A stretch of 64,000 nt of DNA from Streptococcus equinus ATCC 9812. Lineage in GTDB: Bacteria > Bacillota > Bacilli > Lactobacillales > Streptococcaceae. The translations under genes and the position numbers were made by a program. A model generated the notes under the pieces. That model made no database searches. It saw nothing but the letters and a program-made list of their open reading frames with translations, and was not told the origin of the DNA. Below, one piece after another: positions 4,200 to 6,129 of the stretch. The stretch is from NCBI RefSeq assembly GCF_000187265.1, contig NZ_GL698429.1, positions 1,138,929 through 1,202,928 on the forward strand, given 5' to 3'. The first letter of the stretch is position 1. Each line of letters begins with the position of its first letter.

Positions 4200-4784
4200 T
4201 TAATTTAGAGTTCCAATTTCTGATAAAGGCCAGATTCTGAAAATTAGTTTACCAACTAATTGTTCATCCGAAACCACACCGATAGAAGTATTTCGCGAGT
4301 CAATAGAGACTTTACGGTTATCTCCTAAAACAAAGATACGATTTTCTGGAACTTGGTAAGGAAACTTGATGTTTGTCTCACCATAAGCCTTATTCTCGAT
4401 ATAAGGTTCATTTATTTTCTTGTTATTGACGTAAACTGTACCATCTTTTGTGATGTTAACCCAGTCACCAGATTCGGCAATGACACGTTTAACTAAGATA
4501 TTGTTGTTGTAATAAAATGCAACGATGTCTCCCGTCTTAAAGCGATTACTCTTAACAGCTAATACGATATTCCCGCCTTCTAGCGTTCCCTTCATGGATT
4601 TTCCATAAATTCTGAGGGTTGGAAGATAAAGCATGGCTACCAAAATCGCAAAGGCTGCAACAACGATTAACATAAAAACCGTACTTCTAATCTTTTCAGA
4701 AAATAGTTTACGGTATTTTGCTTTCTTATAGAGCTCCTCAATCTCACTCGTTGTCAGGAGAGTGATATTTTCATTCTTTTTCAT
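4200..4784 (-). CDS. Signal peptidase I, probably dedicated to the adjacent surface protein
   Basis: Membrane serine-lysine protease that removes signal peptides from exported proteins. About 40 cytoplasmic residues precede one membrane helix (VFMLIVVAAFAILVAMLYL). The Ser motif YGKSMKGTL follows; housekeeping enzymes usually have SMxPTL, so the Pro is replaced by Gly. The Lys motif is NILVKRVIAESGD and the C-terminal box is GDNR...SIDSR. Both catalytic residues are present, unlike the degenerate SipA of some pilus islands. I chose the ATG at 4784 (MKKNENI) because GGAG stands about 8 bases upstream; the ATG at 4799 has no ribosome site. It overlaps the preceding gene by 14 bases and lies 55 bases before the adhesin, implying coupled expression. 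A housekeeping lepB is at 18546-19139. Confidence 0.88.
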   Translation of the reverse strand: MKKNENITLLTTSEIEELYKKAKYRKLFSEKIRSTVFMLIVVAAFAILVAMLYLPTLRIYGKSMKGTLEGGNIVLAVKSNRFKTGDIVAFYYNNNILVKRVIAESGDWVNITKDGTVYVNNKKINEPYIENKAYGETNIKFPYQVPENRIFVLGDNRKVSIDSRNTSIGVVSDEQLVGKLIFRIWPLSEIGTLN

Positions 4785-5040
4785 GTTTCGCTTCTCCATT
4801 CATTAATTTGACATTTTTAAGATATAAATCCGCTGCTTTTTGACTTTCTTCAAAAACCTTTGTCAAACTAAGAGAAGCTTCTGCGATAGATCCAGCGTTA
4901 GCTAGGCGAATTTCTTGGTTTTCCAATTTTTCATTAGCCTTTGCCAACTCATCTCGTAATCTATCAATCTCTTTGCTTTGCGCTAACATAATCTCATAAA
5001 GTTCGATTCGTTTTAATTTTCGAAGACTTCCTTTTCCCAC
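4771..5040 (-). CDS. Small coiled-coil protein of unknown function, first gene of surface operon
   Basis: 89 residues, no signal peptide or membrane segment. The N-terminus is basic (MGKGSLRKLKRIEL). Residues about 12-50 form a heptad-like charged helix (SKEIDRLRDELAKANEKLE) and the rest is helical and acidic. I do not recognise a family. AGGAGATTTAGG directly precedes the ATG. It is translationally coupled (14-base overlap) to the signal peptidase gene and is first behind a good promoter, so it may assist export or assembly of the large surface protein, but that is inference from position only. Confidence 0.75.
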   Translation of the reverse strand: MGKGSLRKLKRIELYEIMLAQSKEIDRLRDELAKANEKLENQEIRLANAGSIAEASLSLTKVFEESQKAADLYLKNVKLMNGEAKHEKE

Positions 5041-5065
5041 CTAAATCTCCTCGTTTCTTTTTATT

Positions 5066-5080
5066 ATAAAGCGTTTTCAA
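5066..5080 (-). promoter_or_regulatory. cre-like site in the surface-operon leader
   Basis: On the minus strand TTGAAAACGCTTTAT matches the CcpA consensus WTGNAANCGNWNNCW except for one position. It lies between the -10 box and the start codon of the coiled-coil gene, where CcpA binding would block transcription. This suggests catabolite repression of the adhesin operon; not proven. Confidence 0.55.
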
Positions 5081-5088
5081 TTGATTGT

Positions 5089-5117
5089 ATTATAATAAAT
5101 TTAAAGTATTTTTTCAA
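5089..5117 (-). promoter_or_regulatory. Promoter of the surface operon
   Basis: TTGAAA (5112-5117) and TATAAT (5089-5094) on the minus strand are separated by exactly 17 bases. The predicted start is near 5083, about 40 bases before the first gene. Confidence 0.75.
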
Positions 5118-5186: not shown

Positions 5187-5217
5187 CCAAAAAAAGACGA
5201 GATTTTCATCTCGTCTC
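5187..5217 (-). terminator. Terminator of the tiny-ORF array
   Basis: Perfect 9-bp stem AGACGAGAT/ATCTCGTCT with a 4-base loop, followed on the minus strand by TTTTT. It ends the mini-ORF unit and separates it from the surface operon. A second perfect hairpin (7-bp stem, 5231-5248) stands just before it. Confidence 0.85.
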
Positions 5218-5263
5218 TAAAAATTTTTTCGTATGTTATCCAACATACCATTCTCATAAGGAG

Positions 5264-5320
5264 TTAGGCTGTTAGATCATTATCTCCGTTTTTATAGCGA
5301 TTTAAATTCATTTTCAGCAT
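5264..5320 (-). CDS. Mini-ORF F, 18-residue RYKNGD peptide
   Basis: Encodes MLKMNLNRYKNGDNDLTA. GGAGG ends 10 bases before the ATG. It carries the core N-L-N-R-Y-K-N-G-D shared by the five other mini-ORFs of this unit. Its core codons (CGC TAT AAA AAC GGA GAT) differ synonymously from the other copies, so the amino acids rather than the DNA appear conserved. It is the last ORF before the terminator. No signal peptide or hydrophobic stretch. Function unknown. Confidence 0.7.
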   Translation of the reverse strand: MLKMNLNRYKNGDNDLTA

Positions 5321-5337
5321 TGTACATATACCTCCAT

Positions 5338-5382
5338 GACATTTTTATCTACTACAACTTACATTGGTATCACTCCTTTAGC
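5338..5382 (-). pseudogene. Decayed RYKNGD unit between mini-ORFs E and F
   Basis: A strong ribosome site (AAAGGAG) is followed by an ATG that is immediately a stop (ATG TAA). Downstream, GTAGTAGATAAAAATG aligns with GTAGCAAGATATAAAAATGG of mini-ORF E, with small deletions that destroy the frame. It looks like a seventh copy that has decayed. Confidence 0.45.
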
Positions 5383-5404
5383 TATTTTCTGCGACTAGCT
5401 AAAG
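5376..5404 (-). promoter_or_regulatory. Hairpin at the end of mini-ORF E
   Basis: CTTTAGCTA and TAGCTAAAG form a perfect 9-bp stem around an 11-base loop. The 3' arm runs into the AAAGGAG of the following decayed unit. No T-run, so more likely an RNA processing or translation element than a terminator. Confidence 0.4.
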
Positions 5405-5435
5405 TATCACCATTTTTATATCTTGCTACATTCAT
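5382..5435 (-). CDS. Mini-ORF E, 17-residue RYKNGD peptide
   Basis: Encodes MNVARYKNGDTLASRRK. GGAGG lies 6 bases before the ATG. It has the shortest N-terminus of the set (core begins at residue 2) and a basic tail. Arg is AGA here but a CGN codon in all other copies, which supports selection on the peptide. Function unknown. Confidence 0.7.
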   Translation of the reverse strand: MNVARYKNGDTLASRRK

Positions 5436-5482
5436 AAGATACCTCCATTTAACTGAAAATACTCACTGAGCAATGATAATAA

Positions 5483-5581
5483 TCATCCGATTGTTTGGTT
5501 TTTTCTCATGTAGCGATTTACTCGTCGCCACATGTGTTTTGAGTCTCCGCTTTTGTAACGACTTACATTGATTGCTTTCAT
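5483..5581 (-). CDS. Mini-ORF D, 32-residue peptide with RYKSGD core and a second NRY motif
   Basis: Starts MKAINVSRYKSGD and continues with a basic tail containing RRVNRYMRKN, which looks like a second degenerate copy of the core (VNRY). An in-frame ATG at 5599 would add six residues. Neither ATG has a clear ribosome site, unlike the other copies, so expression is uncertain. It is the only member with Ser instead of Asn in the core. Confidence 0.5.
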   Translation of the reverse strand: MKAINVSRYKSGDSKHMWRRVNRYMRKNQTIG

Positions 5582-5778
5582 ATCTATTACAACTTTCATT
5601 AAAAGCTTTTGAACATGGAAGCAATATGATTAGAAGCCCATTCGATTACTACTGTTACTAGCAACAAAATCAACCGGTAATATTTTTTGCGCTAGCTATT
5701 TCTAATCGCTCACTTCCAATTATAATTTTCATCTAAAATGTGACATCACTCCTTTATTGACTTAAATCCAACTAGTTG

Positions 5779-5820
5779 TTAGTCTCCATTTTTGTAACGA
5801 CCTACATTTACCATCAACAT
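5779..5820 (-). CDS. Mini-ORF C, 13-residue RYKNGD peptide
   Basis: Encodes MLMVNVGRYKNGD and stops directly after the Asp, as does mini-ORF B. GGAGG lies 8 bases upstream. Core codons are CGT TAC AAA AAT GGA GAC. This and B define the minimal product. Function unknown. Confidence 0.7.
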   Translation of the reverse strand: MLMVNVGRYKNGD

Positions 5821-5906
5821 AAGACGTTCCTCCGATGTGTTAAATTTTCAATGTTACAATATTATGAGATTTTTGAGGTATAAATCTTTATGGCTAAACA
5901 AAGTAC

Positions 5907-5948
5907 CTAATCACCATTTTTATAGCGACCTAAGTTTAATGTTAACAT
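5907..5948 (-). CDS. Mini-ORF B, 13-residue RYKNGD peptide
   Basis: Encodes MLTLNLGRYKNGD. GGAGG ends 8 bases before the ATG and begins just after the stop of mini-ORF A, so A and B are probably translated in sequence. Core codons CGC TAT AAA AAT GGT GAT. Function unknown. Confidence 0.7.
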   Translation of the reverse strand: MLTLNLGRYKNGD

Positions 5949-5962
5949 AAGCGCCACCTCCA

Positions 5963-6046
5963 TTACGTAAAGTTAACTGTGCCTACCCAACTCCGACTAG
6001 AGACTTTATCACCATTCTTATACCGGGAGACATGTGGTTTCATCAT
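5963..6046 (-). CDS. Mini-ORF A, 27-residue RYKNGD peptide, first of the array
   Basis: Starts MMKPHVSRYKNGDKVSSR and ends with a short uncharged tail (WVGTVNFT). A perfect AAGGAGGT lies 10 bases upstream of the first ATG. Core codons CGG TAT AAG AAT GGT GAT. It is the promoter-proximal copy. No signal peptide. Function unknown. Confidence 0.7.
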   Translation of the reverse strand: MMKPHVSRYKNGDKVSSRSWVGTVNFT

Positions 6047-6099: not shown

Positions 6100-6129
6100 A
6101 TTGTAATGTAACCGCTTACCTTTTGTCAA
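6100..6129 (-). promoter_or_regulatory. Promoter of the tiny-ORF array
   Basis: TTGACA (6124-6129) and TACAAT (6100-6105) on the minus strand, 18-base spacer. The predicted start near 6093 gives a leader of about 47 bases before mini-ORF A. No other strong promoter is visible inside the array, so one transcript of about 900 bases is expected. Confidence 0.8.

Follow-up and report, generated by a model that had tools for sequence, protein, structure and literature searches.

The 64,000-nucleotide stretch of Streptococcus equinus ATCC 9812 DNA analysed here (the window) carries a run of micro-ORFs that share the core RYK(N/S)GD, which raises the question of whether their released peptides, the RNA that encodes them or the ribosomes that translate them are the object of selection. 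Six such ORFs had been claimed in the original prediction, and all six were located on the minus strand between positions 5264 and 6046 (Table 1). Its description of the units was also borne out: a GGAGG-type Shine-Dalgarno (SD) sequence precedes five of the six, unit 4 being the exception without any; N-[V/L]-x stands ahead of the core in five of six, with H-V-S in unit 1; two peptides, those of units 2 and 3, end exactly at the Asp; the claimed promoter and terminator are both present; and the claimed lack of a signal sequence agrees with the absence, by eye, of any hydrophobic stretch of signal length. Unit 4 comprises 32 aa, or 38 aa if started at an ATG further upstream. Four elements of Table 1 are not named in the original prediction: the cre-like palindrome, the hairpin at 5414-5365, the ATGTAA that follows it and the hairpin at 5248-5231. 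Across the 1.74 Mb genome (20 contigs), a degenerate pattern of the motif gave six matches, all within the array, and its reversed control gave none.

Table 1. Elements of the micro-ORF array and their positions in the window
Feature	Position	Strand	Sequence and remarks	Basis
Unit 1 (27 aa)	5963..6046	-	MMKPHVSRYKNGDKVSSRSWVGTVNFT; MMKPHVSRYKNGD plus tail	
Unit 2	5907..5948	-	MLTLNLGRYKNGD; stop directly at Asp	
Unit 3	5779..5820	-	MLMVNVGRYKNGD; stop directly at Asp	
Unit 4	5483..5581	-	MKAINVSRYKSGD plus tail; without SD	
Unit 5	5382..5435	-	MNVARYKNGDTLASRRK	
Unit 6	5264..5320	-	MLKMNLNRYKNGDNDLTA	
Sigma-70-type promoter	6100..6129	-	TTGACA-18-TACAAT	located in sequence
cre-like palindrome in promoter spacer, predicted CcpA site	6107..6120	-	GGTAAGCGGTTACA	consensus match
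GTAGGCA..TTTAC element	5967..5986	-	behind core of unit 1, inside ORF tail	pattern search
Hairpin from Asn-Gly-Asp codons of unit 5	5365..5414	-	SD-like AAAGGAG in 3' arm	model R1, covariation
Start-stop ORF	5359..5364	-	ATGTAA, behind hairpin	read in sequence
Anti-SD-like element	5253..5265	-	AACTCCTTATGAG, behind last unit	pattern search
Further hairpin	5231..5248	-		read in sequence
Intrinsic terminator	5189..5216	-	hairpin plus T-run	located in sequence

Absence of the motif from other genomes had been named as grounds for abandoning the original prediction; the motif is in fact widespread in streptococci. The pattern matched in 111 of 284 Streptococcus genomes, which is an upper bound because AGY (serine) is also accepted by the pattern at its first codon and because scattered single matches are included. 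At least two matches on one strand were found in 60 of the 284 genomes, versus 3 of 284 for the reversed control; this count of 60 is one of match numbers, with clustering read up to genome G136 and in the loci from the hairpin search described below, and it excludes genome G095, whose two matches lie on different contigs. Of 40 regions fetched, 36 contained a short frame with the motif, and 27 of the 36 are arrays, making 28 with that of the window. An array in S. vestibularis (L076) places them in the salivarius group as well. Each array holds 2 to 8 units, eight being read directly in two loci (L201 and L203), and first units like unit 1 of the window are present in many arrays. Duplicates (L085, L109, L110, L125, L151, L137, L116, L132, L120 and L101) were removed before the array unit lists were made.

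The genomic place of the arrays is constant on one side. In all 28 arrays whose flanks were read, mutY lies divergently upstream at less than 2 kb, and rpsF-ssb-rpsR lies further downstream on the array strand in 17 of the 28, several contigs ending before that point. These gene names rest on mutY of the window (TIGR01084) and on S6, ssb and S18 of locus L036, and elsewhere on clustering. Variation in copy number from 2 to 8 and degenerate copies, such as unit 4 of L057 and an HYKNGD unit in L063, could be read as the marks of decaying tandem duplicates without present function, but the promoter, the cre-like site, the core and the mutY position are kept genus-wide and the hairpin in many species, which makes decay scarcely credible. 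A phage or plasmid origin was rejected, since no match to the array turned up among 50,697 records from phages and 72,556 from plasmids. The motif pattern matched seven viral-contig stretches; frames were obtained for six of them, four of 67 to 659 codons, one an SD-less frame of 10 codons and one of 49 codons, and none forms an array. Mimicry of a protein loop was also set aside, as a coincidence of pattern: seven of the ten long frames with the core that were examined share an N-[L/F]-E-RYKNGDL-like stretch, and the one scanned, in L093, is an outer membrane efflux protein (PF02321).

The original prediction remarked that the surface operon adjacent to the array may be a coincidence. Behind the array in the window and in L044, L056 and L063, that is, beside only 4 of 28 arrays, come a small gene of no family, signal peptidase I and a long surface-protein-like frame. 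In L063 rpsF comes after this operon, which therefore looks like an insertion, and in the window the operon has its own promoter-like sequence (5117-5089). The proximity looks like coincidence, as the remark allowed. In the window the small gene that opens this signal peptidase/surface-protein operon occupies 4771-5117 on the minus strand, has a GTG start and belongs to no known family.

Peptide conservation was assessed in 206 distinct SD-led units from all loci collected, single copies included. The core reads RYKNGD in 192, RYRNGD in 7, RYSNGD in 3, RFKNGD in 2 and RYKSGD and RYKDGD in 1 each, an invariance that is overstated because the search patterns were restricted to the exact core or near variants of it and the unit count admitted few substitutions; HYKNGD in L063 and RYKNCD in L197 fall outside the count. 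All synonymous codons are used in the core (six for Arg, two for Tyr, two for Lys, two for Asn, four for Gly and two for Asp), in agreement with the claim that the peptide sequence is selected. Ahead of the core, position -3 is N in 148 units, H in 24 and D in 19, position -2 is V, I or L in 168, and the core starts at residue 8 in 147. The commonest cassette is an SD followed by M-x(1-5)-N-[V/I/L]-x-RYKNGD, with no protein conservation thereafter; the usual length up to the Asp is 10-15 residues, again without a hydrophobic stretch of signal length by eye. A stop codon directly follows the Asp in 61 units, and the other 145 continue for 1 to 12 or more residues, the first of which is never G, P, V or D. 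Residues up to the Asp are conserved and those behind it are free, as in ribosome-arrest leader peptides.

Codon choice within the core is uneven. Among 100 array units, Arg is encoded by the rarer codons CGG or AGG in 38 versus 12.6 expected (about threefold), Gly by GGA in 64 versus 24.4 expected and Asp by GAC in 53 versus 33.7 expected; the p values for these biases are too small because orthologous units are not independent. In 36 arrays, 122 ORFs of at most 60 aa behind an SD-like sequence contain the core and 82 do not, the latter comprising many overlapping or chance frames and including the start-stop ORFs as well as HYKNGD, RYSNGD and RFKNGD variants.

Near-invariant residues written in varied synonymous codons, a length of 13 residues to the Asp that is fixed in most units (147 of 206 have the core start at residue 8) and multiple copies would all suit released cytoplasmic, or lysis-released, N-[V/I/L]-x-RYKNGD peptides that bind a conserved cell component, the array being a dosage device for when the preferred sugar is gone. 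A TprA/PlcR-like HTH regulator beside three streptococcal single copies (L042, L053 and L059) fits such peptides too; the assignment is by appearance, with HTH_3 (Pfam) in the one scanned. We nevertheless consider trans-acting peptides rather doubtful. They have no signal sequence, any tail length is tolerated behind the Asp, and start-stop elements yield no peptide. Neither a receptor nor a protease nor a modifying-enzyme cluster recurs beside the 28 arrays (clusters judged by eye from sequence, some contigs ending within the flank); the HTH-TPR receptor cluster c25, which three streptococcal single copies have, lies beside none of the 28, and other receptor types were judged solely by the absence of a recurrent cluster. 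The likeness to RRNPP pheromones of streptococci (TprA/PapR and SHP/Rgg; PMC12445099) lies in short conserved peptides and in the similar-looking HTH regulator at the three single copies. In contrast to RRNPP systems, the arrays have neither a signal sequence nor such a regulator, and the core is nearly invariant across orders. TprA regulators pair with signal-bearing PapR-type precursors according to the same source (PMC12445099). A reading of the peptides as Rgg/TprA ligands was rejected, since the known peptides of the similar-looking systems bear signals and the regulator cluster is absent from 28 of 28 arrays.

Modified peptides were, with signals, among the roles first proposed. Repeated short ORFs whose core is fixed while their flanks vary, together with single copies beside bacteriocin-type genes and one YcaO/nitroreductase set, would be in keeping with precursors of a RiPP or of a microcin-like product; yet no modifying enzyme recurs beside the 28 arrays, and single-copy loci of bacteriocin type encode the secreted product in a separate gene, so that such precursors appear very improbable. 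Because no recurrent receptor or enzyme was found at the 28 arrays and nothing is conserved as protein past the Asp, neither modified peptides nor signals could be retained as the leading reading.

Conservation behind the Asp is found at the RNA level. A model (R1) with 14 pairs was built from 7 sequences for the region behind unit 5. At E 0.001 it matched 55 times across 54 sources, which comes to 44 distinct hairpins, and it has matches in 37 of 279 Streptococcus genomes. Thirty loci were fetched from this genome search, of which 29 have at least two RYKNGD-like units and one (L215) a single unit; in seven arrays (L036, L044, L045, L048, L064, L068 and L115) R1 had no match up to E 5. The predicted hairpin begins in the Gly-Asp codons of many units. 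In the alignment, which was fitted to R1 and is biased toward the model, 87.0% of 607 cells are paired versus 80.2% in shuffles (0 of 500 as high), 9 of 14 pairs changed on both sides versus 6.0 (4 of 500 as high), and 45 cells show two-sided changes versus 21.3 (0 of 500 as high); sliding controls also fell below the observed covariation values. Six of the seven apical pairs have two-sided changes. At the base, the GG of the Gly codon stands opposite a nearly invariant CC, a pairing that says little because it hardly varies, and the pair of the third Gly base with its partner holds in 18 of 44 rows and fails in 26. RNAalifold on sequence-aligned units gave weak values or none (-3.59 for unit 5 homologues, -2.52 for last units and about 0 for two other groups), and the evidence for the hairpin is that of the model-fitted alignment.

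Loop and downstream sequence of the hairpin are also conserved. The exact loop AAAAUAG occurs in 37 of the 44 distinct hairpins. Relative to the micro-ORF it falls in frame 2 in 25 cases, frame 1 in 11 and frame 0 in 1, and it comes after the stop codon in 10; being kept in any frame or past the stop, it is therefore selected as RNA. The 44 hairpins are followed by ATG-stop in 27 cases, GTG-stop in 2, another ATG in 13 and none of these in 2. Since a start-stop ORF yields no peptide, this arrangement speaks for ribosome placement as the selected trait. In Rfam 15 the array region had six weak matches, the best at 22.5 bits versus a gathering score of 60, and across the 64-kb window only tRNA exceeded the threshold.

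Further elements frame the arrays as separate transcripts. A script assigned a promoter to each of the 37 arrays; two of these promoters, in L043 and L139, are unconvincing, the latter with an N in the likely promoter site, and the spacer measures 17-18 nt in the other 35. Scored against the cre consensus, 33 of the 37 promoter spacers hold a cre-like site with two mismatches or fewer, versus 1.1% of random AT-rich spacers; the four arrays without one are L043 and L139, which have no convincing promoter, and L055 and L130, with three mismatches. With the cre at an operator position, control of the array by CcpA is predicted from these sequences. An element GYAGGCA..UUUAC stands behind early units in 23 of 36 arrays, 22 of 36 have [C/T]TCCTTATGA (RNA: [C/U]UCCUUAUGA) after their last unit, and candidate terminators (hairpin plus T-run) were found behind many other arrays. 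Pairing is also conceivable between the tail of the last unit and the 5' arm of the 5248-5231 hairpin (CTAACAGCC with GGTATGTTGG), by eye a possible switch before the terminator; such pairing was seen at 5231-5275 of the window and at matching places in L039, L051 and L071. We do not claim an end-of-array switch, which is attractive by eye in a few species and without counts, nor a pairing of CUCCUU with AAGGRGU of the hairpin, for which no covariation was seen by eye.

The covarying hairpin, RNA-level conservation across frames, the elements behind first (23 of 36) and last (22 of 36) units and the array's own promoter and terminator would also accord with a structured, CcpA-controlled RNA as the product itself, whose SDs, hairpins and 3' CUCCUU would bind ribosomes, mRNAs or small RNAs while translation would only stabilise it. 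This is unlikely in our judgement, as it leaves unexplained six residues held with varied synonymous codons, in hairpin-less lineages as well.

Single copies of the cassette occur outside the arrays. A stricter pattern was scanned across named genomes; among the matches listed (80 of 115 stretches), tiny SD-led core ORFs occur in Erysipelotrichaceae, Lachnospiraceae, Parvimonas, Peptoniphilus, Ezakiella, Anaerotignum, Granulicatella and others, and in Anaerococcus a core ORF lies behind a weaker SD. Of 398 genomes of class Bacilli, 27 are Streptococcus, 4 of which matched the strict pattern; none of the 371 others did, and single copies are therefore rare in class Bacilli outside Streptococcus. 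Two Erysipelotrichaceae MAGs each have three separate RYKNGD loci (L080, L082 and L091; L094, L098 and L129), each preceding a gene with a hydrophobic N-terminus. A near-identical single unit, MLKMNMSRYKNGD, was seen in three streptococci (L065, L067 and L072), at least 800 nt before a PTS-transporter-like gene and with no close same-strand gene directly behind it.

The single-copy set comprised 28 loci, 20 outside Streptococcus and 8 inside; L118 (a copy of L100) and L124 and L145 (without SD) were dropped before these counts, and L067, L101, L104, L120 and L128 are absent from the single-copy list. The next same-strand gene lies within 500 nt in 25 of the 28 loci, and by a simple ad hoc signal/anchor rule it has a hydrophobic N-terminus, as secreted and membrane proteins do, in 20 of 25, versus 37 of 206 other genes there. 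Some neighbours are of bacteriocin type: a Lactococcin_972 protein (L060; PF09683, 35.2 bits against a cut-off of 22), a weaker likeness below the cut-off (L066), a DUF1430 protein (L042) and a set of YcaO, nitroreductase and a sub-threshold ThiF match (L059). Most other scanned neighbours have no family above the cut-off, and that they are toxins would be an inference.

Two forms of attenuation found no support in the single copies. For release of an SD, next-SD accessibility was flat when a ribosome was masked at the core, with means of 0.58 without and 0.57 with the mask in the 15 of 19 loci that could be scored. For an intrinsic terminator, candidates lay behind the core in 4 of 30 single-copy loci, none with a gene within 460 nt. 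Nor was a constant hairpin found behind the core in the 30 loci (z below -2 in 4).

Peptide selection that ends and RNA selection that begins at the Asp, a fixed hairpin register and a productless start-stop argue together for the ribosome, and not a released product, as what matters, and a nascent-chain pause at Gly-Asp would account for all three facts. We tentatively favour, as a quite possible reading built on sequence comparison, an array of tandem cassettes, predicted to be under CcpA control, in which RYKNGD chains may pause ribosomes at Gly-Asp, so that the position of the ribosome would matter and not the peptide. Each nascent chain would pause its own ribosome at the Gly-Asp codons; while held there, that ribosome would prevent the hairpin from closing, the SD-AUG-stop site would become accessible, and a second ribosome would then be parked on the start codon without making a product. 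The array might thereby report on, or tie up, translating ribosomes once the preferred sugar runs out, with stability, processing or pairing through the CUCCUU near the 3' end as candidate outputs of its RNA.

Placement of the single copies like leader ORFs, with a gene within 500 nt in 25 of 28, counts for pausing, as do the excess of rarer Arg codons in the array units and the lack of a recurrent receptor or modifying-enzyme cluster beside the 28 arrays. Against it count the arrays that carry no hairpin, the lack of a constant downstream gene at the arrays and the core start at residue 8 (147 of 206), which also fits a diffusible peptide of fixed length. Release of an SD or terminator, as in arrest leaders, was not found in the single copies, and the array hairpins precede only a start-stop or very short ORF. 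Since single copies have no constant hairpin, the SD test was flat and some arrays are hairpin-less, any pausing must have another consequence, which could be, for example, protection or cleavage of the RNA. In an extended form that we hold to be somewhat doubtful, the array would be a regulatory RNA of a new kind, free-standing and catabolite-controlled, that parks ribosomes serially on arrest cassettes and AUG-stops and so converts translational state into its own fate, and single cassettes before secreted antimicrobial-like genes of other Bacillota would be the ancestral cis form.

Several known systems resemble parts of this scheme. Like the Rae1 target operon yrzI/S1025 of Bacillus subtilis, the array has several tiny ORFs per transcript and may have a ribosome-dependent RNA fate; the peptides of that operon are different ones and are not known to contain the RYKNGD core. 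In drug- or metabolite-dependent arrest leaders such as ErmBL, a hairpin that holds the SD of the next gene follows. ErmBL itself is reported to have 10 residues, a hydrophobic N-terminus and an Arg that matters for its action, and to stall on macrolide binding with Asp10 in the P site (PMC4935803). It offers a precedent in shape for a short chain with an Arg and a C-terminal Asp that pauses its ribosome, there with a drug bound. The units here share with it the tiny ORF, the hydrophobic N-terminus, the Arg and, at a stall site that is here putative, the critical Asp. Unlike ErmBL-type leaders, the array has 2-8 tandem copies and no constant downstream gene, and the single-copy loci gave no support for SD-release attenuation. 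The same six bases as in the array's start-stop, AUGUAA, are reported to hold the ribosome in the untranslated region of Arabidopsis NIP5;1 (PMC11915504). That case is a plant one and boron-dependent, whereas the AUGUAA of the array is bacterial, lies behind an SD in a hairpin and would stall ribosomes only putatively.

The main text of a pneumococcal ribosome-profiling paper, in the portion available, contains no 'RYK' (PMC9426450). RYKNGD was likewise absent from a full-text literature search, which sequences in figures or supplements would escape; no paper was found linking mutY and rpsF with short ORFs, none on CcpA and small peptides, and none on the array among papers on mutY, rpsF, CcpA or small RNA, as judged by title and the start of the abstract. 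With no Rfam match above threshold and the motif in no paper found, the claim that no family with this motif is known stands as far as these searches reach. We know of no counterpart of tandem micro-ORFs with a hairpin and a start-stop in a transcript of their own.

The finding concerns a motif of six to nine residues that is nearly unchanged from streptococci to distant Bacillota in ORFs below the usual annotation size, and its promoter and, in many species, its hairpin hint at when and how the motif is used. If the pausing reading is true, RYKNGD would be an arrest motif that is testable in a cell-free system, the single cassette would itself be a new type of leader peptide, and the array as a whole would count as a genetic switch of a kind unusual in bacteria. 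The AUG-stop that follows the hairpin would then be a bacterial case of a ribosome-holding device that is, to our knowledge, known from plants only. If the peptides act in trans instead, the motif would be a small conserved ligand for a receptor. Either way, it offers a test of function for micro-ORFs of a class that is passed over in genome annotation.
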